Shown one piece after another: positions 8,391 to 21,566 of a stretch of 21,566 nt of DNA. Positions within the stretch are counted from its first letter, which is position 1. Every line of letters starts with the position of its first letter. Both the position numbers and the translations under genes were made by a program. The notes beneath the pieces were generated by a model. It had not been told where the DNA came from and searched no databases. It saw only the letters and a list, made by a program, of their open reading frames with translations. Source of the stretch: a virus; IMG/VR virus record IMGVR_UViG_3300007541_000273, positions 1 to 21,566 of that record; one strand, written 5' to 3'.

Positions 8391-9167
8391 ATGTTATATA
8401 CAACATTAAACAAGATTCGTGAATTTAGTCCATGCGAGGATGGATGGAAACAATTATTAACGTATTTAAATAAAACCAAAGCTGATGATGAACAGCTAGA
8501 TTTTAAAACTATCTTAAATGCAATAGGAATTAAAGATACATTATGGTGCTTACGAACGCAAGATTTTAAAGATTACTATAAATTTGTAGTCAAGGTTGCT
8601 TATAGTGTTTTACCAATTTTTGAAAACAAGTATCCTGACGATAAGCGTCCAAGACTAGCGATTGAAGCAGTCGATAAGTTTATGAAAGGTGAAATAAGCA
8701 AAGAAGAATTAGAAGAAGCTAGGGCTGATGCTGCTGCTGCTTATGCTGCTGCTTATGCTGCTTATGCTGCTGCTTATGCTGCTTATGCTGCTGCTGCTGC
8801 TGCTGCTGATGCTGCTGCTGCTTATGCTGCTTATGCTTATGCTGCTTATGCTGCTGCTTATGCTGCTGCTGCTGATGCTGCTGCTTATGCTGCTGCTGAC
8901 GCTGCTGCTGATGCTGCTGCTGCTTATGCTGCTGCTTATGCTGCTTATGCTGCTGCTGCTGATGCTGCTGCTGCTGCTGATGCTGCTGATGCTGCTGCTG
9001 CTGCTGATGCTGCTGATGCTGATGCTGATGCTGATGCTGATGCTGCTGCTGCTTATGCTGCTGCTGCTTATGCTGCTTATGCTGCTGCTGACGCTGCTTA
9101 TGACGCTGCCAAAAAAGAAAAATGGAAAGAAATAGAACAGATATTTGTTGAAGAGTGTTTAAATTAA
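8391..9167 (+). CDS. Phage protein with N-terminal SPCxxGW domain and long alanine-rich tract, 258 aa
   Basis: The N-terminal ~105 residues carry EFSPCEDGWKQLLTYLNKTK and ADDEQLDFKTIL, then DTLWCLR. I recognise this domain from phage proteins of unknown function that end in alanine-rich repeats. Residues ~112-240 are almost only Ala, Tyr and Asp. Tyr recurs at spacing 4-3-4-3 (YAAAYAAYAAAYAAY), which would put it on one face of a helix or coiled coil. The C-terminal cap (KKEKWKEIEQIFVEE) is normal. Relatives I know usually have Trp, Arg or Asp between alanines. Function unknown; its place between the recombinase and SSB genes suggests a replication-linked or DNA-associated role. Confidence 0.75.
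   Translation: MLYTTLNKIREFSPCEDGWKQLLTYLNKTKADDEQLDFKTILNAIGIKDTLWCLRTQDFKDYYKFVVKVAYSVLPIFENKYPDDKRPRLAIEAVDKFMKGEISKEELEEARADAAAAYAAAYAAYAAAYAAYAAAAAAADAAAAYAAYAYAAYAAAYAAAADAAAYAAADAAADAAAAYAAAYAAYAAAADAAAAADAADAAAAADAADADADADADAAAAYAAAAYAAYAAADAAYDAAKKEKWKEIEQIFVEECLN
8724..9110 (+). repeat. GCT-based trinucleotide tract encoding the alanine-rich region
   Basis: For 129 codons the sequence uses only GCT (one final GCC), TAT and GAT, with a few GAC. All frames therefore stay open on both strands over most of its length. The near-total use of one alanine codon indicates slippage or unequal-exchange expansion and not merely selection for alanine. Confidence 0.9.
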
Positions 9168-9196
9168 AGTTTACTAACAAAAAAAGGAGAAACAAT

Positions 9197-9643
9197 ATGT
9201 TTTTTAACGCAGAAGAAGAAAATAAGAAAAATCCAAGTGAATATGATCCAATTCCTGCCGGATGGTATTATGCAAGCATTGAGGGTGTTGAGCTGAAAAC
9301 CACTAAAGCCGGAGACGGTCAATTTATTGCTGTTACTTTTTCATTGATTGGAAAGCAAGAGGGTCGTAAATTATGGCACAATTATAACATTTCAAATCCT
9401 AATGAGATGGCTGAAAAAATTGGTCGTGGTGAGCTTGCACGTCTTTGTATTGCTGTTGGAAAAGTTCAGTTATCAGCACCAGAAGATTTGCTTAATTCAT
9501 TTGTTGATATCAAAGTAACAATTAAGCCTGATAATCGTGATAAAGACGTTATGCGTAACTTTATAACTCAATATGCGGAAGGAGATAAGAACAGCGCTAA
9601 AGAACTAGCCAAGCCTGTTACTGATTCCGCTCTACCTTTTTAG
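9197..9643 (+). CDS. DUF669-family, SSB-like protein, 148 aa
   Basis: I start at ATG 9197 because AAGGAG lies 8 bases upstream; the upstream in-frame ATG at 9155 sits inside the alanine-rich gene without a binding site. The body (YDPIPAGWYYASIEGVELKT, VTFSLIGKQEGRKLWHNYNI, LARLCIAVGKV) matches the DUF669 phage family, an OB-fold single-stranded DNA binding type protein often next to Sak4, Erf or RecT genes. The last residues, DSALPF, mimic the acidic/hydrophobic tip of bacterial SSB (DxxIPF), which recruits partner proteins. It probably coats single-stranded DNA and assists the Sak4-like protein. Confidence 0.8.
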   Translation: MFFNAEEENKKNPSEYDPIPAGWYYASIEGVELKTTKAGDGQFIAVTFSLIGKQEGRKLWHNYNISNPNEMAEKIGRGELARLCIAVGKVQLSAPEDLLNSFVDIKVTIKPDNRDKDVMRNFITQYAEGDKNSAKELAKPVTDSALPF

Positions 9644-9882
9644 TGTTTAGCGAAGAAATAAAAAAATTACTCGATTCAGAAGATAAGAAATTCATAAACC
9701 TTAAATTGTCAAAACATATGATTAAACACAGGTCGTTTATTGCAAAAAACTACGAGCTTATCTTCTGGAAAGAGTATGAAAAAGAAATTTTTGAACATAA
9801 AAAAAGAAATGCAGGGGCTAGGGCTGCTAATTCTTATTTAAGAGATTTAAAGGTTAGGACTCATTATGATAGAGTTACGTGA
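9643..9882 (+). CDS. Small hypothetical protein, 79 aa
   Basis: The frame begins with GTG 9643, which overlaps the TAG of the SSB-like gene (TAGTG), and it has no clear ribosome binding site. It is probably reached by translational coupling; ATG 9718 is an alternative that would give a 54-residue product. The protein is basic and helical (KRNAGARAANSYLRDLKVRT) with no known domain. Its end overlaps the helicase start by 17 bases. Function unknown. Confidence 0.55.
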   Translation: MFSEEIKKLLDSEDKKFINLKLSKHMIKHRSFIAKNYELIFWKEYEKEIFEHKKRNAGARAANSYLRDLKVRTHYDRVT

Positions 9883-12373
9883 TTATCAGAAAGAAGCTAT
9901 TAATTCAACATATCAATATATAAATGACGGCAAAGGGAACCCAGTTATTAGTGCTGCTTGTGGTGCTGGAAAATCGATAATCCAAGCAAAAATAGCTAGT
10001 GACGTTAGATCAAAAGGAAAAAGATTTTTAATGCTTGTTCATACTAAAGAATTAGTGGAACAAAATGCAAATAAAATAAAAGCATTATTGCCAGATGAAA
10101 AAATTGGTATATGTTGCAGTGGAATAACATCAAAAAAAAGCGCTAAAGAAAATATAGTTTGTGCTAGCCCACAAACTTTTGTCAATATGATTGGCAAGAT
10201 TGAGGAGGGGTTTGATGTTTTGACTATTGATGAATGCTTTAGTGGAGACACCGAAATTCTTACAGAAAAAGGTTTTGTAAGATTTGACAAACTTAAAAAT
10301 GAAAAAGTAGCACAAGTTACAAAAGATGATCAGTTTATAGATTTTGTAAACTACACTAGGAAAATTGAAAAAACACCTGAATCAGACGTTTACCATATCA
10401 GAAGTGATAAAGGAGTGGATTTAATATTAACTGCTGGTCATGAGATGCTACTACATAATAAAAGAGCTGGTGAATGGGTTAAGAAGAAGCTAGAAGAATC
10501 TAATTTTAATCCACATTGGCAGGTTGCTAAAAGTGGTTTCTCATCTCACGCACGAAACACGCTTACTCCGTTTGAAAAGCTAGCAATTGCTTTTCAAGCT
10601 GATGGTACTAGACACTGTGAAAGCAGGATTTATTTTTCATTTTCTAAACAAATAAAAATAGATTATTTCCTAAAATTAATGGAAGAGTTAGGGTGCCAGT
10701 ATGAAGAAATATCACCGTGTTCTAAATCAAGTGAAAAAGTAAAAGACAAACGAAGATTCTCTGTTGTTAATTTTGGTTTAACTAAAGACATTCCAAGTTA
10801 CTTTAATATAAATGAATTAAGTGTAAATAAAGCCATCGAGATAATAGAATACATGAATATTTGGGATGGTCACATTGCATCTAAAAATTGTTATTTATAC
10901 ACAAACACTGACAAGAAGTCAGTTGATTTCTATCAAGCAGTTTGTTGCTTATGTGGATATTCAACAAAAATGGTTAGGGCTGTTGATAAAAGAAGCGATA
11001 AATTTAATGACGTTTTTAGGCTATTCATAACTAAGAAGCAAATGGCATCAACACAGAGTTGGAAGAAAGAGAAAATAGAATTTAAAGATAAAGTATATTG
11101 CGTTGAAGTTCCCAAAGGAAATATCGTTGTTAGAAGAAAAGGAATGACTCTTGTTGTTGGAAATTGCCACCGTATACCTTTCAAAAAAGAATCAGTTTAT
11201 CAAAAAATAATCTCATTTTTGAAACTATTAAATCCAAATATGATAATTATCGGCATGTCTGGTACTCCCTTTAGGGAAGATGGCACAGTATATGACACGC
11301 AAGGTAGCATATTTAGCGGATTATCCTATGACATAGGTATAAAAGAATTATTACAGAAGAATTACCTATGTCCTGTTATAAGCAGGGGCGGTGTACAAAA
11401 AATAGATTTATCATCAGTTAAAAAACTAGGTGGAGAATACAATCAGTCTGATCTTGCTCGTGCTGCAGACGTTGATACACTAAATGAATCTGTTGTGAAT
11501 GACATAATTGAAAATGGTTATGATAGAAATTGCTGGTTAGTTTTTTGCAGCGGAATACAGCATGGGGAGCATTTAAAAGAAAAATTTATTTTAAAAGGGA
11601 TAATTGCAGAGGTTATAACTAATAATACTTCAAAGCAAGAAAGAGAAAACATAATTGATAAGTTCAAGAAAGGTGAGATAAAATGCTTAATTAATAATTC
11701 AATATTGAATACAGGATTTGACCACCCTCCTATAGATTTAGTTGCTTTCGTCCGTGCTACATTATCAACAAGCTTGTTTATACAATCAGTATCACGAGGA
11801 ATTAGAAAACATAGCAGTAAAGAGAACTGCTTGCTATTAGACTATGGAAACAATATAGAAACACATGGTTTCATAGATGAACCTACGCCAAAAATAAAAA
11901 AGAAAGGTGATAAAAGAGAACCGGTAACAAGAGAATGCCCTAAGTGCCACTTAATATTACCAGTGCAATCTAGGGTATGTGAATGCGGTTATGAATTTCC
12001 AATTGCAGAAACAGTTGCAACGTATCAGTCATATTCTTATGACGGTGCTGTGACAAGTGATCAAGTTAAGCCTATAGGAAAGTATGTTAAAAGTATTATG
12101 TGTAAACGCCACAAAAAAAAGAACTCAATTGATAGTGTAAAAATAACATACTTATTTGAAGATTTAAGCAGTGCTGACGAGTATTTATGCCTTGATCATG
12201 GCGGTTACGCATCAATTAAGGCGAAAAGTCGTGTAAAAGAAATGGGAGGAATTTCTGATAGTGTTAGTTCAGCTTTAGATGAATGGATTAGTTGGTCAAA
12301 ACCAACTAAGGCAATATTATCATTTGATCAAAAATATAAGCGTTATAAAATTGATAGATTATTTTTTAATTAA
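9866..12373 (+). CDS. SF2 (DEAD/H) helicase interrupted by an intein, 835 aa precursor
   Basis: Helicase motifs in order: ELRDYQKEAI; motif I AACGAGKS (Lys36); Ia LVHTKELVEQ; motif II DECHR, split by the intein after Asp122-Glu123; III GMSGTPFRED; IV WLVFCSGIQHG; V NTGFDHPP; VI QSVSRGIR. A zinc ribbon follows (ECPKCHLILP and CECGYEF) and a C-terminal domain. Removing residues 124-433 leaves a 525-residue helicase, a normal length for phage UvsW/RecG-like SF2 helicases. It probably remodels forks or recombination intermediates. The active site cannot form until the intein splices, because motif II is interrupted between Glu and Cys. Confidence 0.9.
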   Translation: MIELRDYQKEAINSTYQYINDGKGNPVISAACGAGKSIIQAKIASDVRSKGKRFLMLVHTKELVEQNANKIKALLPDEKIGICCSGITSKKSAKENIVCASPQTFVNMIGKIEEGFDVLTIDECFSGDTEILTEKGFVRFDKLKNEKVAQVTKDDQFIDFVNYTRKIEKTPESDVYHIRSDKGVDLILTAGHEMLLHNKRAGEWVKKKLEESNFNPHWQVAKSGFSSHARNTLTPFEKLAIAFQADGTRHCESRIYFSFSKQIKIDYFLKLMEELGCQYEEISPCSKSSEKVKDKRRFSVVNFGLTKDIPSYFNINELSVNKAIEIIEYMNIWDGHIASKNCYLYTNTDKKSVDFYQAVCCLCGYSTKMVRAVDKRSDKFNDVFRLFITKKQMASTQSWKKEKIEFKDKVYCVEVPKGNIVVRRKGMTLVVGNCHRIPFKKESVYQKIISFLKLLNPNMIIIGMSGTPFREDGTVYDTQGSIFSGLSYDIGIKELLQKNYLCPVISRGGVQKIDLSSVKKLGGEYNQSDLARAADVDTLNESVVNDIIENGYDRNCWLVFCSGIQHGEHLKEKFILKGIIAEVITNNTSKQERENIIDKFKKGEIKCLINNSILNTGFDHPPIDLVAFVRATLSTSLFIQSVSRGIRKHSSKENCLLLDYGNNIETHGFIDEPTPKIKKKGDKREPVTRECPKCHLILPVQSRVCECGYEFPIAETVATYQSYSYDGAVTSDQVKPIGKYVKSIMCKRHKKKNSIDSVKITYLFEDLSSADEYLCLDHGGYASIKAKSRVKEMGGISDSVSSALDEWISWSKPTKAILSFDQKYKRYKIDRLFFN
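10235..11164 (+). mobile_element. Intein with LAGLIDADG-type endonuclease, 310 residues, in helicase motif II
   Basis: It begins at Cys124 (CFSGDTEILTEKGFV, block A) and ends at Asn433 (GMTLVVGN, block G), followed by Cys434 of the extein. Block B is LILTAGHEMLLHNK (Thr-x-x-His). Two endonuclease-like motifs are seen: LAIAFQADG (Asp246) and a degenerate second near IIEYMNIWDG (Asp334). The residue before the terminal Asn is Gly432, where most inteins have His; such variants are known, but the residue matters for Asn cyclisation. The endonuclease may still be active for homing into intein-less helicase genes. Confidence 0.9.
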
Positions 12374-12390
12374 AAGTAAAGGAGGTACAT

Positions 12391-12750
12391 TTGAAAAACT
12401 CACCACTTGAATCGGCTGAACAAAAAGGGTTTATTGATTGGCTAAGAAATAAACACCCACATTTAATATCATTTTCAATTCCAAACGGTGCAACAATGAC
12501 TAAAAGAGAAGCAATGAAGATGAAGAACGAGGGGCTTCTTGAGGGAGTTCTAGATATTTGTGTAATGTTGCCTTTTGGTAAAAGTGTTTTCATAGAAATG
12601 AAAAGAGTAAGACCAAAAGGGAGATTGTCTGATGTTCAAAAAGATTTTATAAAAAAGGCAAATGATTTAGGTCATGACACTATAGTTGCATGGGGTGCTG
12701 AAGATGCAAGTATAAAGTTTTTAAGATATTTGGAGGACAATTCTTTTTAA
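12391..12750 (+). CDS. VRR-NUC domain nuclease, 119 aa
   Basis: The start is TTG 12391, supported by a perfect AAAGGAGGT 4 bases upstream and no nearby ATG. The motifs of the PD-(D/E)xK-type VRR-NUC fold are in place: ESAEQK (Glu7, Gln11), NGA, GVLDI (Asp55), FIEMKR (Glu69, Lys71) and GRLSDVQ (Gln83). Stand-alone phage VRR-NUC proteins are structure-specific nucleases, related to the Holliday-junction-cutting nuclease domain of FAN1. Its place behind the helicase suggests resolution of branched replication or recombination DNA. It is the last gene of the + operon; its stop directly abuts the stop of the convergent gene. Confidence 0.85.
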   Translation: MKNSPLESAEQKGFIDWLRNKHPHLISFSIPNGATMTKREAMKMKNEGLLEGVLDICVMLPFGKSVFIEMKRVRPKGRLSDVQKDFIKKANDLGHDTIVAWGAEDASIKFLRYLEDNSF

Positions 12751-13098
12751 TTATTTTTCTTTTTTAAGCTTATTAATATAAATCCAAGCAGTATCAAGAC
12801 TTTTTTGTACTTCTGAAACCAAAACAGTTAACTTTCCTATTTGATCTGGTTTATTAGATACATATTCCGAATAGTAAGTAAAGAATGCTAATAATAATGA
12901 TATTATTGCTCCTATGGTAATAACTGTCTTTTTCATGCCAGAAACCTCTATTAATTGCTTCTCAAGATCATTAACTTTATTTTTAACTCTATCTAACTCT
13001 TCTTTTAATTCAGAGCTATCTGATATTATTTTCATTCTTTCAATTTCTATTTTTATTTTTTGTATATCTTTCTTTAATTCACTGTTGAATATATCCAT
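12751..13098 (-). CDS. Membrane-anchored coiled-coil protein, 115 aa
   Basis: The start is placed at ATG 13098, with AGGT about 8 bases upstream; a longer start at 13137 lacks any binding site. Residues ~5-52 are heptad-like and highly charged (LKKDIQKIKIEIERMKIISD, LDRVKNKVNDLEKQLIEV). A single membrane helix follows at ~56-76 (VITIGAIISLLLAFFTYYSE) and then a soluble tail. The layout loosely recalls XhlA-type holin-associated proteins, but the tail is longer and I do not assign it. It lies alone on the - strand between + genes. Confidence 0.6.
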   Translation of the reverse strand: MDIFNSELKKDIQKIKIEIERMKIISDSSELKEELDRVKNKVNDLEKQLIEVSGMKKTVITIGAIISLLLAFFTYYSEYVSNKPDQIGKLTVLVSEVQKSLDTAWIYINKLKKEK

Positions 13099-13141
13099 AA
13101 AAATACCTATATCGCGCAATACATAGCATAAAAACAAAGCA

Positions 13142-13170
13142 TTGACTAATTATTATTGGTATTTTATACT
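13142..13170 (+). promoter_or_regulatory. Strong-looking sigma70 promoter
   Basis: TTGACT (13142-13147), a 17-base spacer and TATACT (13165-13170) give 5 of 6 matches at each box with ideal spacing. It points at the small basic gene starting at 13204 and lies in the divergent gap beside the coiled-coil gene. Confidence 0.6.
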
Positions 13171-13203
13171 CATATAGTGTTATATACAAATAAAGGAATA
13201 ATG

Positions 13204-13344
13204 ATGGCTATTAATATGTTGAAAAACAGTGTACGATTCAAGGCAAGTCCGATGAAGCAGGTTACACTAAAAAATGGAACAAAAGAAGATCAAAAAGAAA
13301 AAGTGGTTTCCAAAAAAACCTCACCAAAGAAAGTTAAGAAATAG
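13204..13344 (+). CDS. Small basic protein, 46 aa
   Basis: AAAGGA lies 6 bases before ATG 13204 (ATG 13201 is also possible), downstream of the promoter at 13142-13170. The peptide starts MAINMLKNSVRFKASPMKQV and ends in a lysine-rich tail (SKKTSPKKVKK). The strong positive charge suggests binding to nucleic acid or to an acidic host protein, as with some early host-takeover peptides; that is inference. Its 3' end overlaps the exonuclease gene on the other strand by 11 bases. Confidence 0.55.
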   Translation: MAINMLKNSVRFKASPMKQVTLKNGTKEDQKEKVVSKKTSPKKVKK

Positions 13345-14119
13345 TCCATTCCTTTTCAGTTAAATTAACTTTGGACTCAACTTCAAAGGCATTGCAGTAC
13401 AAAGAGTTAGTTTCATAATCGTATCTGTGATTTAAGCTAAGACAGAAAAAGTCTCTATACAAATCTAGCAAATCTAGCTTTTTACTTTTGTAGATATCAA
13501 TAAGCATTGATTCAGCTTCTTCCTTGCTGTTGATGTCTTTAAACGCGTTTTTAACAGCAACAGCACCCATTCCTTTGATTCCTTTGATTCCATCTGCCGC
13601 ATCACCTTGCATAGCTTGCTTATACCAAAACATTTCATCTTTTTTACATGACTCCAGTGTCATTGGGTTCAAAACATCATCTAATGTATTAAAATCTTTA
13701 TCAATACTTACAATTTCAGCAAGTAAACCTCTATCTTTAATTCCTTTGAAAGCATATGAAATAGCATCATCAGTCTCATTATAATATTCACATTGCTGAA
13801 CTTCATTTGAGTTATAAAATTTCTCAATCAATAAATTCAACCCGACAGGTGGTCGCAAATTTGACCTGTTTGCTTTATATTCAGGATTAATTATTTTACG
13901 AAAATTGAAACGATTATCTAAATTTATATTATTTCCAAAAAGCAACAATTTAATATTTTCACCATTCAAAGGCTCAAGAATATCAGTCATATTTTGCATT
14001 CCCTTTTCTAAGTTAAATGCATCAATGAAATATCCTTTTTGAATCTCTATTGTTTCTAGCCCACGTGCTGCACTTTTATAAAGCAAGCTATCTATATCTA
14101 CTAGTCTATACTTAATCAT
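13334..14119 (-). CDS. 5'-3' exonuclease of the FEN / PolA-exo family, 261 aa
   Basis: Metal-binding motifs are in place: DIDSLLY (Asp8, Asp10), RKIINPEYKANR (81-85), ETDDA (Asp117, Asp118) and SIDKDF (Asp140, Asp142). A helix-hairpin-helix region follows (QGDAADGIKGIKGMGAVAV, with Asp173 and Asp176). The length is like that of T4 RNase H or T5 D15 exonucleases. It would remove RNA primers or flaps during phage DNA synthesis and complement the primase. AAGGAG lies upstream of ATG 14119, and the gene overlaps the RNA ligase end by 8 bases. Confidence 0.88.
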   Translation of the reverse strand: MIKYRLVDIDSLLYKSAARGLETIEIQKGYFIDAFNLEKGMQNMTDILEPLNGENIKLLLFGNNINLDNRFNFRKIINPEYKANRSNLRPPVGLNLLIEKFYNSNEVQQCEYYNETDDAISYAFKGIKDRGLLAEIVSIDKDFNTLDDVLNPMTLESCKKDEMFWYKQAMQGDAADGIKGIKGMGAVAVKNAFKDINSKEEAESMLIDIYKSKKLDLLDLYRDFFCLSLNHRYDYETNSLYCNAFEVESKVNLTEKEWTIS

Positions 14120-15047
14120 TTAAATACTCCTTAACAAATGGCACACATAAACGCTTACACTCTTTTTCAAAAATCTTATCGTACTTGTTATTAGAGAAAA
14201 ATATTACCTCATCATATTCTTGCATTTCTTCTAATGCATCAGCATGAAAATCATATAATAAGCTGCCAAAGTCTTTTTTAAAATAAGTCTTTTTACTTGT
14301 AACGTTTTGTAGTCTGTTGTTAGTGACATATTTACTAAATTTTTCTACTGCATCAATTACACTCTTAGGAATTTCTTTTTTCTCTTCGCTACTTAGCCCT
14401 AGACTTTTACGCTTCTCAGACCATTTTTTAGATTTTTTCTTGATTAAGAAACTTTCACTGTTGTAATAAAAATAAGTATCCATTAGCGGATAAATGACTA
14501 TACCTTCCATAATATTGCCTTTAATATCATTAACTTGATTATAAGTTGCAAAACTACTCTCAATATCTACATCCATTTCCAATGCTTCATATAATTTCAT
14601 TTTTTTAGTATCCAATACTAGAAAATGATCATATAATAACTCCCAATTTTCTAAATGAGACCACTTTTTCACTCCATCAAAATATAAATCAAAAGCAACA
14701 AAAGATGGCGTTAATAGTTTAAGTGGCACATAAACAGGATTAGCTTGCACCCTATTACCATAAAGCTCACCAAAAACAGTTACTGTTGTGTATAAATAAT
14801 TCAGATTGGAAACAAAGCTACGCATTCTACTTTCCAATACTTCTTTGATAGAATTTACATTATAGAAGTTATCACCACTAATGATCTTACTACGGGACGC
14901 GAATTGCACTTCATCAATTTCTCTGTTATATATGATTGAAAAATTAGCACCATGTATTTTTTCAGACACTAAAACTAACTGATCTTTGTCTAATTCATCA
15001 ATGTACTTACTGTCATAGTTGAATATTTTTTTATATCTAGTAAAAAT
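14112..15047 (-). CDS. Rnl2-type RNA ligase, 311 aa, apparently starting at ATT
   Basis: Nucleotidyltransferase motifs are complete: motif I EKIHGANF (adenylated Lys30), III VFGELYG (92-97), IIIa FDLYF, IV MEGIVIYP (Glu181) and V FLIKKKSKKWSE (~200-211). It resembles T4 Rnl2, which joins 3'-OH and 5'-phosphate RNA ends in duplex or nicked RNA. The first ATG/GTG/TTG in frame is GTG 14969, which would remove the first 26 residues. The upstream frame reads FTRYKKIFNYDSKYIDELDK, which aligns with the T4 Rnl2 N-terminus. The codon at the expected Met position (15047-15045) is ATT, with AAGGA 8 bases upstream. It lies 5 bases after RtcB. Confidence 0.85.
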   Translation of the reverse strand: MFTRYKKIFNYDSKYIDELDKDQLVLVSEKIHGANFSIIYNREIDEVQFASRSKIISGDNFYNVNSIKEVLESRMRSFVSNLNYLYTTVTVFGELYGNRVQANPVYVPLKLLTPSFVAFDLYFDGVKKWSHLENWELLYDHFLVLDTKKMKLYEALEMDVDIESSFATYNQVNDIKGNIMEGIVIYPLMDTYFYYNSESFLIKKKSKKWSEKRKSLGLSSEEKKEIPKSVIDAVEKFSKYVTNNRLQNVTSKKTYFKKDFGSLLYDFHADALEEMQEYDEVIFFSNNKYDKIFEKECKRLCVPFVKEYLND

Positions 15048-15052
15048 GTTAT

Positions 15053-16249
15053 TTATCCTTTTATATTTAAAACTGCTTTTAATTTATGCTTTATTTTAAC
15101 CAAATCTTTTTGAGCATTCATAACAGCGTTCATATCTTTATATGCGTTTGGACTCTCATCGATAATTCCTTCGTCTAGTCTACATTCAACGCCTTTCATG
15201 GATTCTGCATGCTCCATAAGTGTTATTTGTTTTCTAGCCTCATTCCTACTCATTTTTCTACCTGCTCCATGTGAGCACGAGCAAAAAGACATTTTATTAC
15301 CAAGACCTTCAACTATGTAAGAAGTTTGCCCCATAGCATTAGGTATGATTGCTGTGTCACCTACTCTGGCTCTAACAGCGCCTTTTCTCGCAACATAAAC
15401 ATTCTTGTTGAAGTGATTCTCTTTCTCTATATAGTTGTGATGACAATCTATAACAATATCATTGAAGTCTTTAAAAACATCAGTGATAAAGTATGTTTTA
15501 AAGCAACTCACTATTAAATTAAGAATAACAGCTCTGTTAAGCTTAGCGTATTGCTGAGCAAAGCTAACAGAATATATATAGTCATTGAAGTGCTTAGATT
15601 CTTCAACCAGATAAGATAAATCAATATCAGGTATATACTTATCAATGTAATATCTCTGCATTTCTTCTTTCGCTTTATCAATGTAATATCTTCCAATACG
15701 ATTACCAACACCCCTAGAACCTGTGTGCAACATTATCCAAATCTGGTCATTTTCATCTAAGCATATCTCTATAAAATGATTTCCACCACCTAATGTTCCA
15801 AGCTGCCTGTATAATTCTTTATGTTCAGCAAAGCCATTTGATAATTCAACAACGTAATCATACATTGATTGTAAATATAATACTTCTTTCTCGAACTTTC
15901 TTAGGTGATCCTCATCTTTGTGGACACCAAATCCAACTGGAACGACACTCTCAATATCCATTCTCATTTGATGAAGATCATCTGGAAAATACTTAGCGTC
16001 TACGCCAGTGTTTAATGCCAACATTCCGCAACCTATATCAACTCCTATTGTAGCAGGTACCACTGCTTTTATAGTTGGAATTACAGTTCCAACAGTAGAC
16101 CCTTTTCCATAGTGGCAATCTGGCATTACAGCTACATGTTTGTGTATAAATGGCAAACTTGATGTTCTATTAACTTGTTCAATAGTCAAGTCATCAACAT
16201 CAACACCATTTGTGAAAAATATCGATCTATCGTTATATCTAGTAAACAT
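15053..16249 (-). CDS. rtcB: RtcB RNA ligase, 398 aa
   Basis: RtcB joins RNA ends bearing 2',3'-cyclic phosphate or 3'-phosphate to 5'-OH ends, using GTP and Mn2+. Diagnostic motifs are present: MPDCHYGKGSTVG (42-54), GVDIGCG (Asp71, Cys74), GGGNHF (His158), LHTGSRGVG (His175), DCHHNY (His270, 271) and SCSHGAGRKMSR with the guanylylated His327. The length matches E. coli RtcB (about 408), so the enzyme looks intact. The start ATG 16249 lies just after the zinc-knuckle gene and its ribosome binding site is weak. Next to Rnl2 it suggests repair of RNA, probably tRNA, cut during infection. Confidence 0.95.
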   Translation of the reverse strand: MFTRYNDRSIFFTNGVDVDDLTIEQVNRTSSLPFIHKHVAVMPDCHYGKGSTVGTVIPTIKAVVPATIGVDIGCGMLALNTGVDAKYFPDDLHQMRMDIESVVPVGFGVHKDEDHLRKFEKEVLYLQSMYDYVVELSNGFAEHKELYRQLGTLGGGNHFIEICLDENDQIWIMLHTGSRGVGNRIGRYYIDKAKEEMQRYYIDKYIPDIDLSYLVEESKHFNDYIYSVSFAQQYAKLNRAVILNLIVSCFKTYFITDVFKDFNDIVIDCHHNYIEKENHFNKNVYVARKGAVRARVGDTAIIPNAMGQTSYIVEGLGNKMSFCSCSHGAGRKMSRNEARKQITLMEHAESMKGVECRLDEGIIDESPNAYKDMNAVMNAQKDLVKIKHKLKAVLNIKG

Positions 16250-16253
16250 ATCA

Positions 16254-16544
16254 TTATTTCATTTTGTTTTTCAAACACCCACAACTTTTCGTATGGTTTC
16301 TTCTTATATCGCTCTCACGAGCTATAAATATGTTGCCACATAAACACATAACATTCAACATTTTTCTACGTCTTTTTTGACTTTCTTGGTTATTGACACC
16401 TAAAACACTAATTGATTTACATCCCCATTGTTTTATTCTTATTCTTGTTTTCAATAATTCTTTATTGCAATCCATGTCTATTATTTTATTTCGTGAATCT
16501 ACAGCCCACCAAGTTTTTTGATTAGTAGTAAATATATTTATCAT
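16254..16544 (-). CDS. Small zinc-knuckle (CxCG...SCGCL) protein, 96 aa
   Basis: The C-terminal third has VMCLCGNIFIARESDIRRNH and KSCGCL (Cys67, 69, 88, 90). This is the same zinc module as in the protein at 3611-4054 and in phage HNH/AP2-type homing proteins, but here it sits at the C-terminus and no nuclease motif is visible. A basic patch (QKRRRK) precedes it. It overlaps the upstream gene as ATGA and ends five bases before RtcB. It may bind DNA or RNA, or be the remnant of a homing gene inserted upstream of rtcB. Confidence 0.6.
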   Translation of the reverse strand: MINIFTTNQKTWWAVDSRNKIIDMDCNKELLKTRIRIKQWGCKSISVLGVNNQESQKRRRKMLNVMCLCGNIFIARESDIRRNHTKSCGCLKNKMK

Positions 16545-17104
16545 TTTGCTATTTCTGCACCCCGCAGCCTTTGAAATGGATATAAAACTCTATTATACTC
16601 TGATAAATCAGGAGCGTGCACTGCTTTTATCAAGATTCCATTTATATATTCTTTGTCAGTCTGATATTTTTCTGGCAATATTTTAACATTTGTTTGAATT
16701 ACTTCTTGATTTTTTATCAAACCAATAGAGCTTCTTGCGCTTTTTAGTGTCACATATAACCTTATCGTGTTGTAGTAAGGGTATCTTATCATCTTATAAC
16801 TATCATCTAAATATATTACTGGTATGCCATTATACTTTGACATATCAACAATAGTGCCAGTTATGTACCCAATACGACCAGAATAAGCATCCCATGCGTT
16901 GAAAACATTGCTATTTAGATCAGAAGTAATTTTTATATCAACGATATTAAATTCTACAATTGAAACATCTGAATTAGAAACAATCTTATTTATTTCATTT
17001 TCCGTTAAGTATGAACTTTTATTGGTTTTTATAATGAAATATAAAAATAATGATACAATAATTAGTGATAAAATAATTGAAATTATTATATATCTTATTT
17101 TCAT
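16541..17104 (-). CDS. Membrane-anchored protein with possible OB-like domain, 187 aa
   Basis: Residues 5-26 form one strongly hydrophobic segment (YIIISIILSLIIVSLFLYFI), an uncleaved anchor or signal sequence. The rest is soluble and strand-rich (GRIGYITGTIVDMSKYNGIP, PVIYLDDSYK, IRLYVTLKSA). That pattern resembles tRNA_anti-like OB folds, but I cannot confirm it. With the basic residues placed as here, the domain would lie outside the cytoplasm. The start codon is inside an inverted repeat (17104-17141). No defined function. Confidence 0.55.
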   Translation of the reverse strand: MKIRYIIISIILSLIIVSLFLYFIIKTNKSSYLTENEINKIVSNSDVSIVEFNIVDIKITSDLNSNVFNAWDAYSGRIGYITGTIVDMSKYNGIPVIYLDDSYKMIRYPYYNTIRLYVTLKSARSSIGLIKNQEVIQTNVKILPEKYQTDKEYINGILIKAVHAPDLSEYNRVLYPFQRLRGAEIAK

Positions 17105-17141
17105 ACAATATTCTCTATATTAAACAATTATGAATATTGTA
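17104..17141. repeat. Inverted repeat at the start of the 187-aa gene
   Basis: TACAATATT (17104-17112) and AATATTGTA (17133-17141) are 9-base complementary arms 20 bases apart. The inner arm abuts the ATG. This could be an operator or a leader hairpin that affects translation. It lies in the only sizeable gap in this part of the operon (17105-17160). Confidence 0.4.
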
Positions 17142-17160
17142 CATTATTTAAGATGCAAAT

Positions 17161-17430
17161 CTAATGATAAATTATTTCTTTATCTTTTATTTGTTCTATA
17201 CATATTTGATCTAGTAAATTAATAACTATTTCATATAATGCTTCTGCATCACTTAAACATTTTTCAATGTGTTCTTCAGAAACTCCTTTATTAGCAATAA
17301 GAGCTGATTTGGTTAAAGAATTTCGACAGTCTATCAAAAACTTATTCTTCACATATTCAGTAGATGCTTCCCTTATAATCCACATTTTAACTTGTTTTAA
17401 AAGCTCAGAAATGATTGTGTATTCAAACAT
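17161..17430 (-). CDS. Small hypothetical protein, 89 aa
   Basis: The start is ATG 17430, with AGGAGG 8 bases upstream; the longer in-frame start at 17448 would place that binding site inside the coding region. The protein is helical (FEYTIISELLKQVKMWIIRE, CLSDAEALYEIVINLLDQIC) with no membrane segment or known motif. It overlaps the upstream gene by 8 bases. Function unknown. Confidence 0.6.
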   Translation of the reverse strand: MFEYTIISELLKQVKMWIIREASTEYVKNKFLIDCRNSLTKSALIANKGVSEEHIEKCLSDAEALYEIVINLLDQICIEQIKDKEIIYH

Positions 17431-17635
17431 ATTTATGCCTCCTATCAACTGTGTAGATTTTTGACTTTTTATATGATCTATTCTTATTTGTTATCATTCT
17501 TCTTTGAGGCCTCAATGCATGGTGCATAAGGTATAATCTCGTTCTTTCATTCATTTTTATAGACCTCATATATGGTAATTGGTCTTGGGTTATTATTTTT
17601 TTATTTGAAGTGAATAAATCTATAAGTTGAATCAT
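17423..17635 (-). CDS. Small basic hypothetical protein, 70 aa
   Basis: The ATG overlaps the stop of the 62-residue gene (ATGA). The protein is strongly basic in its second half (HHALRPQRRMITNKNRSYKK), which suggests nucleic acid binding. No family recognised. Confidence 0.5.
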   Translation of the reverse strand: MIQLIDLFTSNKKIITQDQLPYMRSIKMNERTRLYLMHHALRPQRRMITNKNRSYKKSKIYTVDRRHKYV

Positions 17636-17820
17636 TTTATCTTACCATCCAACTGCAACTGCATTATTTTCATTGAAACTTTAAATGCATATTTATTCTG
17701 ATCTTCTCCAATGTAAGGGCGTGGAATTTGCAACATATCTGATAACATATAAACATCTTCCAATCCATGATAGTTGCCAGCTCTCTCTAATGCTACCATT
17801 AATTCATCTTTGTCAATCAT
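17632..17820 (-). CDS. Small hypothetical protein, 62 aa
   Basis: ATG 17820 lies inside the end of the upstream gene and is preceded by GAGGACG. The peptide begins MIDKDELMVALERAGNYHGL. It is probably helical, with no motif. Tight overlaps on both sides (8 and 4 bases) support a real operon gene. Function unknown. Confidence 0.5.
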   Translation of the reverse strand: MIDKDELMVALERAGNYHGLEDVYMLSDMLQIPRPYIGEDQNKYAFKVSMKIMQLQLDGKIK

Positions 17821-18205
17821 ATCGTCCTCTTAATACTTTCTCTAATTGATTTTTCAAATATTCATTTTGTTTTGTTATAGTTTCAAGATGATCTGAACAA
17901 TTGATTAAAATGTTTTCGCTTAGAATTAATAGGTCTTCTTTGAATTTATCTTCTTTTAACTCAATCTTAAGACTTATGGGGAAAGTCTCTAGTGAATTTT
18001 TAATATTGAAGGATATTCTTGGATTCAAAGCTTCATCTGCATATTTTCTAAAAATTATACTGTATATTTTACCATATCCTAGTTGCTCTTCTACTTCATA
18101 ATATGTTTGTTTTATAAGAGATCCTTTAATTTTTTCTAATCCAGCCACACCTTTCAAGTCGACTCCAAAAAAGCTGTATTTAAAAAAATCATCATACAAT
18201 GCCAA
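17813..18205 (-). CDS. Hypothetical protein, at least 130 aa, start unclear
   Basis: The shortest credible start is TTG 18205, but it has no ribosome binding site. The frame stays open upstream to a TAA at 18262-18260 and continues in a protein-like way (FIDFEVYDSSNSDYCLALYD). Before that TAA lies the 48-residue ORF in the same frame with a strong binding site. The simplest reading is one ~196-codon gene broken by the TAA. The C-terminus is a charged coiled-coil-like helix (DHLETITKQNEYLKNQLEKV). Function unknown. Confidence 0.5.
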   Translation of the reverse strand: MALYDDFFKYSFFGVDLKGVAGLEKIKGSLIKQTYYEVEEQLGYGKIYSIIFRKYADEALNPRISFNIKNSLETFPISLKIELKEDKFKEDLLILSENILINCSDHLETITKQNEYLKNQLEKVLRGRYD

Positions 18206-18252
18206 ACAATAATCACTATTACTTGAATCATAAACCTCGAAATCAATAAATA

Positions 18253-18272
18253 AGAAATATTAAAATATTTCT
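18253..18272. repeat. Perfect 20-bp palindrome at the end of the 48-aa ORF
   Basis: AGAAATATT (18253-18261) and AATATTTCT (18264-18272) are perfect complements separated by two bases. The TAA stop of the 48-residue ORF lies at its centre. On the - strand the hairpin is followed by T-rich sequence, so a weak terminator is possible, but the stem is almost entirely A/T. Confidence 0.6.
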
Positions 18273-18406
18273 ATAAAATCTTCCTCAAACATAAAGTAAC
18301 ATAATTCACCACGATTAACAGAGGAGATAATATTTATATATTTGTCCATGTTTTTTAAAAATTTATTGTTATTCATATTATTACTTGCATATCTTGTAAA
18401 TTTCAT
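18260..18406 (-). CDS. Small hypothetical protein, 48 aa, perhaps 5' part of a split gene
   Basis: AAAAGGAGAAGAA gives a very strong ribosome binding site for ATG 18406. The peptide starts MKFTRYASNNMNNNKFLKNM and ends GELCYFMFEEDFIEIF. The downstream open frame (17813-18259) is in phase with it, separated only by TAA. It may be a genuine short protein or the amino end of an interrupted one. It shares FTRY near its start with RtcB and the RNA ligase. Confidence 0.5.
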   Translation of the reverse strand: MKFTRYASNNMNNNKFLKNMDKYINIISSVNRGELCYFMFEEDFIEIF

Positions 18407-18420
18407 TTCTTCTCCTTTTT

Positions 18421-18573
18421 TTATAAATATTTATTAATTTTTTTTATTGCTTTTTTGGTACTTACTTTTCCACTCATAAATATGTTTATCTCTTCCCCTT
18501 CAATTGTTAGCCTGAAGTGATAATTGTCTACATTAATTAACTTAAAGCTAAATTCAATGTTTGAACATATTAG
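18421..18573 (-). pseudogene. Open frame without a start codon, about 50 codons
   Basis: After the TAG of the 78-residue gene the same frame stays open to TAA 18423-18421. It reads SNIEFSFKLINVDNYHFRLT, then IEGEEINIFMSGKVS and a lysine-rich end. There is no ATG, GTG or TTG before the late Met. An ATG at 18568 in another frame stops after four codons; deleting one T after it would give an intact 48-residue protein. The options are a frameshifted gene, amber readthrough or a sequence error. FRLTIEGEE...SGK is faintly like IF-1/OB proteins, which I do not trust. Confidence 0.35.
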
Positions 18574-18810
18574 CTAATATAGCTTCACCCTAACTAAAGA
18601 TAAGTTGCGATCATACAACCTCTTTTTCTCAGCGTTTTTACTGTAAAAAATAGTTTCAGCATGAAGTAGTGTATGCAACAATTCTCTATTAAATTCAACT
18701 AATTGCATATACTCTTCTCTACAAGTTTCAGCATACATAGAGACAATTTTGTAATGATGTTTTTTAGGAACATATTTTCTAAATACCCATTCTTTAATAA
18801 ATTTAATCAT
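18574..18810 (-). CDS. Small hypothetical protein, 78 aa
   Basis: ATG 18810 lies 3 bases after the upstream stop, with a GGTAG element nearby. The protein is basic and helical (KFIKEWVFRKYVPKKHHYKI, EFNRELLHTLLHAETIFYSK) and without membrane segments. Its TAG is followed by an in-phase open frame of 50 codons. Function unknown. Confidence 0.5.
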   Translation of the reverse strand: MIKFIKEWVFRKYVPKKHHYKIVSMYAETCREEYMQLVEFNRELLHTLLHAETIFYSKNAEKKRLYDRNLSLVRVKLY

Positions 18811-18813
18811 AAA

Positions 18814-19143
18814 CTACCATAATACCTCATCTTCATTAAGATTATCTATACTTAAGTCTAAATCACCATGACATCCTAGATGAATGTCTAAACATTCCTC
18901 TTTCTCAATCAAACCCCATTTAACTAAGTGACATATAAAAGAGTTTTTTTCGCTTGCATTTCCCCATATATCTGAGCCATATTCTCTATAATTTTTATTT
19001 CTTAAAATATAGTCCTCTTTCAGTTTATCTATGTCAAAATCTTTTTTACATCTATAAAGACCAACATTATGTAAATCATCATATGAGTCAGCATTAAATA
19101 AAATTAACTTACCTTTTTCGATATAATTTGTTTTAGATTTCAT
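18814..19143 (-). CDS. Hypothetical protein, 109 aa
   Basis: I use ATG 19143; a TTG two codons earlier is the only longer start. It overlaps the 3' end of the NAMPT-like gene by 11 bases, so it is probably co-translated. The protein is soluble and rather acidic at the end (GDLDLSIDNLNEDEVLW). It has His/Cys residues in FICHLVKWGL and LDIHLGCHGDLD that could bind metal, which is only a guess. No family recognised. Its direct coupling to the NAD+ genes makes it a candidate partner. Confidence 0.55.
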   Translation of the reverse strand: MKSKTNYIEKGKLILFNADSYDDLHNVGLYRCKKDFDIDKLKEDYILRNKNYREYGSDIWGNASEKNSFICHLVKWGLIEKEECLDIHLGCHGDLDLSIDNLNEDEVLW

Positions 19144-20602
19144 CTGCAATATCTCTTATTTGACGTAATGAAGTTTCTTGTACTAATTTACCGTTTTCAT
19201 ACACAACTTCCAACAGCCCTTCACTTTCCTCTTTAACAGTGCAGTTATCGTTAACTTTAATATTGTCACCACTTCTATAAACTTTTAATAATCCTTTTAG
19301 AGATTTTTTGCCATTATCGGTCTTAGGGTCTTTGTAGATAGCTTCCCATTTATTGTTCTTGTAAACAGCAGTTGCTTTAACAGCGGTGCCATGGGTATCT
19401 CTAGTTACATATTGATACGTATAAGAACCTATGCCTAACACTATGTTTGAACTAGCAAATCCTTTTCTTTCTAACTTATCCAATATCTGCTCTTGTCTTT
19501 CTAATGTTATACTATCACCGTATATGGCACCGATTTTGTCATTTAAAACCTTATAGCCTTTTGAGTTTATGGTTCCGCCAAAAATATCCCACAAGCACTC
19601 AATTAAACCTTTATCCTCTGGCATTTCTCTTAAAGGTGATTTACCACAAATAATATCTACTGGGTCTCCTGAGTCAGGACGTATAACAACTTTACCATCG
19701 CGAGCCATTATATCTTTTTTTAACTGAGGTAAAAACTCATTAACTACTTTCCAAAAATCCCAAGTATCACTAACAATACTTAAAACCCCCACTGGAGATA
19801 CTTCGTTCATTAGATATTTAAAAAACTCAATTTCCCCTTCATTCTGCCAAGAACATGTTACCGAGTGTTCTGTCGCATTAACTGAACACCCTATAAGTTC
19901 TTTTGATGAGTCTGCGTTGTAATAATCTTCAGCAAATCTTACTGCGGGTATTGTGTCAGTACCGACAAATCCTGAACATAAATGAGCGAACCCAGACATA
20001 GCAGCTGCTTCTAACCCAAACATTCCCCTAAAACTGAAATCGTGCCCTTGAAACTTAACGTGGTCATCGTTATCACATGTTTTTTGTGAGTATTCCATAA
20101 ACTTATCATAATACGCTTTTGCCGTTGTAGCTGAGGTTGAAATCGCCCATATATAAGAAGACAATACTGTTTCTACCATGTTTGTAAGCCATTGGAAACC
20201 TTCGACAGTATTAACTATCGTAAAGCAAGGTACTTGATATGGAACTAAGGTACCTTCTGGTAATGCTTTTATTTTTAACGGCAGATAACCTAAATCGTAC
20301 AAGTTACTTAAATAATCAACATTTACGTCATGCCCTAGCATATTCGATAGTAATTCTTTATGGTTTTTCATGGCTACATCTTTTGATACTTTGAAAAAAG
20401 TTTCATTCCATGTTTTAATTAAATATTCTTTGATGAAATATTGTAATCCAAGAAATACAACACCTTTAGAATCCTTTATGTTAGAAAGTTTACTGCTTCT
20501 ATTTGTGTAATTTGAATAGACTTTTTTAACATCTGGGTGATATGCATGCACATGAAATTCTTTGTATACATCTTTTTGTAACGTGGCTTGTATCATTTTC
20601 AT
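19133..20602 (-). CDS. nadV: NAMPT-like phosphoribosyltransferase (NadV; candidate Namat), 489 aa
   Basis: Full-length type II PRTase of the nicotinamide phosphoribosyltransferase family. Nicotinamide-site residues match human NAMPT: DVYK (Asp11, Tyr13), HDFSFRG (Phe189, Arg192), GTDT (Asp216), ATEHS (His246) and VIRPDSGDP (Arg308, Asp310). It would join nicotinamide to PRPP, giving NMN. In the NARP1 pathway the homologue Namat instead uses ADPR-pyrophosphate and makes NAD+ directly. The gene overlaps the upstream Prs-like gene by ATGA, and no NMN adenylyltransferase or PnuC is seen nearby, which fits NARP1. The sequence alone cannot settle substrate choice. Confidence 0.9.
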   Translation of the reverse strand: MKMIQATLQKDVYKEFHVHAYHPDVKKVYSNYTNRSSKLSNIKDSKGVVFLGLQYFIKEYLIKTWNETFFKVSKDVAMKNHKELLSNMLGHDVNVDYLSNLYDLGYLPLKIKALPEGTLVPYQVPCFTIVNTVEGFQWLTNMVETVLSSYIWAISTSATTAKAYYDKFMEYSQKTCDNDDHVKFQGHDFSFRGMFGLEAAAMSGFAHLCSGFVGTDTIPAVRFAEDYYNADSSKELIGCSVNATEHSVTCSWQNEGEIEFFKYLMNEVSPVGVLSIVSDTWDFWKVVNEFLPQLKKDIMARDGKVVIRPDSGDPVDIICGKSPLREMPEDKGLIECLWDIFGGTINSKGYKVLNDKIGAIYGDSITLERQEQILDKLERKGFASSNIVLGIGSYTYQYVTRDTHGTAVKATAVYKNNKWEAIYKDPKTDNGKKSLKGLLKVYRSGDNIKVNDNCTVKEESEGLLEVVYENGKLVQETSLRQIRDIADEI

Positions 20603-21465
20603 AATTTTATTACCTCTATATATTTATTTGATTCACCTGAATAATAACTATCTGTCGTATAAATTTTATCAATATATGGTTTTAGTGCGTCTAAACCTTT
20701 CGTAAATATTCCGTGAGTCACAACTAACTCCACCGATTTAGCGTCATATAATTCTTTAGTCTTAGCCAACTTAGCTAGTTCTATGAACGTTCTTCCACCA
20801 TCACAAATATCATCTATTATAACTACATTCTTATTTGTAACATTACCGTGTATAGTAACTCTTGAAATTTCTCCTGTTTTTAAATCACGATGTTTGAACC
20901 CAGTGGCTACTGAGTTTTTTGCATTAAACTTTAAAGCTAGTTCATTTACTTCTTTGTACGCACCGACATCTGGTGACAGGACTATAGTGTCCGTTGAACC
21001 TACTTTTTCTGACAGTAAGTCAAAAAATATTCTGTTTTTACCTATAGTTTTAGCGTTATTTATCAATAATGGAGCTACATTGCTATGAGGGTCATATATG
21101 TTAACTTCGTCAAAATTCATTGAGTTGACCATACCGGCAACGACATTTAAACTAAAACATTCTCCAGCCGAGCAAACTCTGTCTTGACGCATATACGGTA
21201 AGTATATTAAGTCTAAAATATATTCAAACTTACATGGTGAGGCAGAACCTAATGCATCTTTAATCAACATTAGCTCAAATAAATCTTTCTCGTCTTTTAA
21301 CCTTGCTCTGAAATGTATCATTTTGAGTTCTGTTATTATTTTTTGATCTTTTATTTCTATTTTTATTTCACCAGATGGGAATTTTACTTTATTGTATTCT
21401 ATGTTATAAGTTTTTATTAAATCTTTATTTATATATGGTATTGCCGTCAATTCAATTGTTTTCAT
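20599..21465 (-). CDS. prs: Prs-like ribose-phosphate diphosphokinase (candidate Adps), 288 aa
   Basis: Prs-family motifs are present: YMRQDR (91-96), IYDPHSN (123-129), VLSPDVGAYKEVNELALKF (162-180) and the PRPP-type loop VVIIDDICDGGRTF (214-227). At 288 residues it is shorter than bacterial Prs (about 315) and resembles the prs partner found beside nadV in phages such as KVP40. Canonical activity is PRPP synthesis from ribose-5-phosphate and ATP. In NARP1 the homologue Adps pyrophosphorylates ADP-ribose. AAGGGTG precedes ATG 21465. It is the first gene of the - operon visible here and is translationally coupled to the NAMPT-like gene. Confidence 0.88.
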   Translation of the reverse strand: MKTIELTAIPYINKDLIKTYNIEYNKVKFPSGEIKIEIKDQKIITELKMIHFRARLKDEKDLFELMLIKDALGSASPCKFEYILDLIYLPYMRQDRVCSAGECFSLNVVAGMVNSMNFDEVNIYDPHSNVAPLLINNAKTIGKNRIFFDLLSEKVGSTDTIVLSPDVGAYKEVNELALKFNAKNSVATGFKHRDLKTGEISRVTIHGNVTNKNVVIIDDICDGGRTFIELAKLAKTKELYDAKSVELVVTHGIFTKGLDALKPYIDKIYTTDSYYSGESNKYIEVIKL

Positions 21466-21566
21466 AATTATTCACCCTTGTTATATTTTCTATTAACAAT
21501 TCTTAGCATAGCTCTCCCATCTCCACATACCCACTTCACCACAACCCCCCATCTCACACTCTCTGA
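21466..21566. other. Region upstream of the NAD+ genes; odd composition at the very end
   Basis: This is the leader side of the - operon. Bases 21466-21520 are AT-rich like the rest and include the ribosome binding site. The final ~45 bases are C-rich and contain almost no G on the + strand (CCACATACCCACTTCACCAC, then a run of six C). No convincing -35/-10 pair or ORF was found. The shift may be a natural element or poor sequence at a contig end. Confidence 0.4.

Follow-up and report, generated by a model that had tools for sequence, protein, structure and literature searches.

A phage RNA ligase gene directly behind rtcB probably starts at AUU and shares a 14-nt repeat with the rtcB start

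How might an RNA ligase gene be translated whose reading frame offers no credible canonical start codon ahead of its active site? The question is raised by a phage locus in the IMG/VR record IMGVR_UViG_3300007541_000273, of which positions 1 to 21,566 were analysed (the window; 21,566 nt). On its minus strand, an HNH-type gene, rtcB, the RNA ligase gene and a 5'-3' exonuclease-like gene form a tightly packed series (Table 1). A first-pass annotation, made from the letters alone, had placed the ligase start at an ATT codon. Following up this proposal, we regard ATT 15047-15045 as the best start reading for the ligase, probably with low-level initiation coupled to termination of rtcB.

Table 1 Features of the rtcB-ligase locus (window coordinates).
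Feature	Position	Strand	Remarks
HNH-type gene	16544-16254	-	
rtcB gene	15053..16249	-	398 aa, ATG start; Pfam RtcB (PF01139) 1.4e-114
Direct repeat TTTACTAGATATAA, rtcB copy	16233..16246	-	immediately 3' of rtcB ATG
T TTA AAT, possible -1 slippery heptamer at rtcB end; rejected	15065..15071	-	downstream fold z = +0.69
SD site AAAAGGA	15056..15062	-	last two rtcB codons (invariant Lys-Gly) and preceding base
rtcB stop TAA (inside TAAATAAC)	15053..15055	-	5 nt upstream of ATT
Rnl2-type RNA ligase gene	14112..15047	-	311 codons and stop; Pfam and PHROG matches
Proposed ligase start codon ATT	15045..15047	-	no canonical alternative; in register with Met1 of Rnl2 proteins
Direct repeat TTTACTAGATATAA, ligase copy	15031..15044	-	immediately 3' of ATT
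GTG, sole canonical in-frame start near ligase N-terminus; rejected	14967..14969	-	
Catalytic Lys30 codon (EKIHG motif)	14958..14960	-	invariant in 62/62
5'-3' exonuclease-like gene	13334..14119	-	PHROG 107 1.3e-23; 8-nt overlap with ligase end

Judged by its domains and motif, the ligase appears to be of the T4 Rnl2 type, with a predicted nick-sealing activity. The protein contains an adenylyltransferase domain (Pfam RNA_ligase, PF09414, 2.3e-16), in which the KxHG lysine motif is present, and an Rnl2 C-terminal domain (T4_Rnl2_C, PF18043, 1.5e-10); its residues 2-308 match PHROG 548 (4e-40). Residues E29, K30, G33 and N35 are invariant in the family, and all 12 columns that are invariant across 62 sequences are retained in the ligase. 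T4 RNA ligase 2 (RnlB; PDB 1s68, 2hvq) belongs to the same family and has both domains and the conserved N-terminus; however, its identity to the phage ligase is just ~21-28%, and T4-type genes start at ATG. An AlphaFold model of the phage ligase built from 62 sequences reached a mean pLDDT of 86 (87 for residues 1-20). Its best PDB matches are the T4 Rnl2 structures 2hvq/2hvr. Overlaid over their whole length, these fit loosely (rmsd 15-20 Å), perhaps due to domain placement; with the single-domain entry 1s68 the fit is at 4.7 Å.

At the start site we observe the ATT, a suitably spaced SD, and a conserved frame that is intact and offers no other credible start. The joint of the two genes reads ATAAAAGGATAAATAACATTTTTACTAGATATAAAAAAATATTC on the minus strand; AAGGA (15060-15056) is followed by the eight bases TAAATAAC (15055-15048), ATT and then TTT ACT AGA TAT, exactly as the first-pass annotation had described. 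The frame opened by ATT runs for 311 codons to a TAA at 14112. Between ATT and GTG 14969-14967 it holds no in-frame ATG, GTG or TTG, and a protein begun at that GTG would read V-S-E-K with the catalytic lysine at position 4; both points had likewise been made before and are borne out. In the 5' direction, the frame is open for just 12 codons (IKSSFKYKRINN), again with no ATG, GTG or TTG. The anti-SD duplex at ATT amounts to -5.4 kcal/mol, which equals the value for the gene with an ATG start at 2348 and ranks lower-middle among the genes of the window, and the RNA around ATT is nearly unfolded (-0.1 kcal/mol for 60 nt). Two further codons were considered as starts and rejected on inspection of the sequence, namely an upstream in-frame ATA at 15056-15054 and the ATT right after the preceding stop of the ligase frame; neither has an SD at suitable spacing. 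The gene for RtcB, beginning at 16249 (-), presents the reverse of the ligase: it starts with ATG and lacks an SD (duplex +0.4 kcal/mol).

The position of ATT also agrees with the protein family. When the ligase is aligned with six further Rnl2 proteins, the codon falls at, or beside, their Met, which confirms the claim that the encoded N-terminus lies in register with Rnl2. Phe occupies position 2 in 49 and Tyr position 5 in 55 of 62 relatives, and the ligase has F2 and Y5; Tyr5 of T4 Rnl2 has an essential role. Of the other loci that encode the catalytic motif, all 70 viral ones and 79 of 80 bacterial ones have a canonical start 18 or more codons ahead of the lysine, the sole exception being a 16-codon open stretch that looks broken. 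Given these relatives, the lack of such a start in the phage ligase is exceptional, and the homology argument for ATT as the start holds on 70 viral and 79 bacterial sequences. The comparison of orthologues suggested by the first-pass annotation gave ATG or GTG for distant relatives and ATT only for a second contig of the same phage, the sole close relative. A close relative that would show a conserved ATT or an ancestral ATG was not found, the nearest having ~31% identity.

Could the ATT simply be wrong? A base-call or assembly error that replaced a true ATG would suit both the usual ATG of the Rnl2 family and the T run directly after the start codon, but the second contig speaks against it. 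IMGVR_UViG_3300025646_000652 (17,245 bases) has ends that differ from those of the window, past which it extends by 4,615 bases, and is identical to window positions 9115-21566 with zero mismatches over 12.4 kb. It reads ATT at the ligase start, and was the only match when all viral contigs were scanned for ATN at the joint; the two contigs may share one sample. An error common to both is unlikely, and we give this explanation hardly any credence. Initiation at the internal GTG 14969, the start given by a standard ORF caller, would produce a protein of 285 aa that lacks the conserved F2, Y5 and N10 and begins within a strand (residues 24-30 of the AlphaFold model) which this start would cut; the site has no SD (-0.9 kcal/mol), and such a start is very improbable.

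A start codon would be unnecessary altogether if a programmed -1 frameshift at T TTA AAT produced an RtcB-ligase fusion. Read in the frame of rtcB, the heptamer does match X XXY YYZ, with the ligase frame already open at that point, yet it encodes a Val-Leu-Asn stretch common to related RtcB proteins, the RNA downstream shows no excess folding over shuffled sequences (z +0.69), which leaves no stimulatory structure, and the alignment of the ligase N-terminus begins exactly at ATT, all of which makes such a fusion scarcely plausible. More thought is due to a gene that has recently lost its ATG and is barely or not translated, its frame being intact because the loss is young. As would suit a recent event, the 14-nt repeat shared with rtcB is exact, also at third codon positions, and AUU was very weak in an E. 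coli survey, in which ATT ranked seventh of 64 codons with ~0.3% of ATG (Hecht 2017, as cited in PMC10666635); at such a value the ligase gene might be nearly silent. However, the well-spaced SD and the stop 5 nt upstream persist, the family-invariant residues are all kept, and the sequence is identical in two contigs. We consider such a silent or nearly silent gene unlikely and prefer initiation at ATT.

If ATT is the start, the ligase would be translated from AUU 15047-15045, with fMet inserted by the initiator tRNA. The distance of 5 nt between the rtcB stop and AUU is as close as in termination-coupled gene pairs, and together with the SD in the last rtcB codons it would place a terminating ribosome over the ligase start. 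A ribosome that terminates at the TAA would already sit over AUU, with the SD at hand, and could reinitiate there at a low rate, yielding less ligase than RtcB. This SD is formed by the codons for the C-terminal Lys-Gly of RtcB (K397, G398), invariant in nine RtcB proteins. Reinitiation requires very short distances, the commonest overlaps being -4 or -1 nt and +5 less usual (PMC10666635), and AUU/AUA reporters reach ~10% of AUG in S. aureus (PMC13009471). From short-distance reinitiation and the published weakness of AUU, low and rtcB-dependent ligase synthesis is expected; AUU initiation, the coupling to rtcB and the low level are each what we infer from this arrangement.

But, how should a ligase gene have come to lack its ATG? 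The first-pass annotation had viewed AUU as a means of the phage to limit the ligase relative to RtcB and had pointed to the autoregulation of IF3. Low expression is indeed a likely consequence, whereas an evolved device is unsupported, and nothing points to IF3 feedback. A simpler historical cause is suggested by TTTACTAGATATAA, a 14-nt exact direct repeat absent from that annotation, which stands behind the rtcB ATG as well as behind the ligase ATT. Directly ahead of the exact block the two copies differ, as the start codon ends in G in rtcB (ATG) and in T in the ligase gene (ATT). The block is the sole 14/14 match in 465 pairwise comparisons of the window's gene starts (next best 11, mean 5.0). 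When in-frame 14-mers were drawn at random from window genes, 66 of 400,000 draws matched in full, a figure that includes the same 14-mer drawn twice and a gene with Ala-rich repeats. The similarity extends weakly upstream (32 nt at 78%), making it the longest direct repeat in 3.8 kb. Since the encoded FTRY fits the Rnl2 N-terminal pattern FxKY and related RtcB proteins are without such an N-terminus, transfer from the ligase to rtcB is the likelier direction.

We put roughly even odds on the idea that the ATG and first codons of the ligase gene were duplicated or split off when rtcB arrived upstream. Whether rtcB was inserted with target duplication or the start region was duplicated, the ligase would have been left with the final codon of the insert, so that rtcB keeps ATG-TTTACTAGATATAA and the ligase keeps TTTACTAGATATAA behind a non-ATG codon. 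ATT may thus be an accident of rearrangement rather than an evolved switch of the IF3 type. In a bolder version, which we offer tentatively and consider rather doubtful, rtcB inserted just behind the ligase ATG with a 14-nt target duplication and took over the start and the next four codons, while the ligase survives on an AUU fed only by ribosomes leaving rtcB, with an SD drawn from the invariant Lys-Gly end. If this were true, start-codon capture would set the ratio between two RNA-repair enzymes. An empty-site relative was found neither by the exonuclease search nor in the flanks of viral ligase loci nor in 11 checked records: the exonuclease search for sister phages returned just 27-31% matches, none of the other viral ligase loci has rtcB, the HNH gene or the exonuclease within its 3 kb flank, and just one of the 11 records carries rtcB at all, about 45 kb away.

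Other repeats occur nearby. A role of TTTACTAGATATAA as a common translational operator was considered and rejected, as neither an antisense nor an additional exact copy exists. The shorter ATNTTTACTA lies near the HNH gene start and is too short to build on; its count in the window is five, with 1.0 expected, and three of these copies lie at consecutive gene starts. Close to the HNH gene start, ATATTTACTA is likewise present (16526-16535, -). Inside rtcB, an exact 17-nt direct repeat with copies 36 nt apart (15639-15691, -) encodes RYYIDK twice.

AUU starts as such are already known from infC, pcnB and S. aureus cvfC1; what is unusual here is the likely origin of this one. The earlier statement that they are known mainly from infC was right in that infC uses AUU but too narrow, as pcnB and cvfC1 do so as well (PMC13009471). 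E. coli infC, encoding IF3, likewise combines AUU with an SD, yet it is autoregulated by its product, of which the phage ligase bears no sign. Also in E. coli, pcnB encodes an RNA-metabolism enzyme too, and its weak AUU start limits the yield (Binns and Masters 2002, as cited in PMC13009471); it is, however, a bacterial gene, whereas the ligase is encoded by a phage, lies directly behind rtcB and has a duplicated start region. In S. aureus, cvfC1 has AUU and SD in an operon, with ~10% of AUG measured (PMC13009471), but its SD is extended, while the ligase relies on a 5-base SD of the ordinary kind, with a stop codon 5 nt ahead of AUU. No earlier phage AUU/ATT start was found in the literature searched, which covers the subject in part. 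The locus offers a clean and testable example of AUU use by a phage gene, which gene callers limited to ATG, GTG and TTG would cut at GTG 14969 with loss of conserved residues, and it suggests how a gene that has lost its ATG can persist, drawing on ribosomes from a neighbour newly placed upstream.

Further features of the window may be of interest in their own right. A helicase gene (9866-12373, +) contains an apparent intein: its helicase domains span residues 2-124 and 439-792, Intein_splicing matches at 155-417 with 8e-5, below its cut-off, and residues 111-436 match a ribonucleotide reductase family in PHROG. The gene at 8391-9167 (+) encodes a protein with ~130 residues of Ala/Tyr/Asp repeats (AAYAAAYAAD...) and a weak Imm-5-like match, its GC content being 42% compared to 31% for the window. 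Finally, adjacent genes for a nicotinamide phosphoribosyltransferase and a ribose-phosphate pyrophosphokinase (19133-21465, -) form an NAD-salvage pair near the two RNA-repair ligases.
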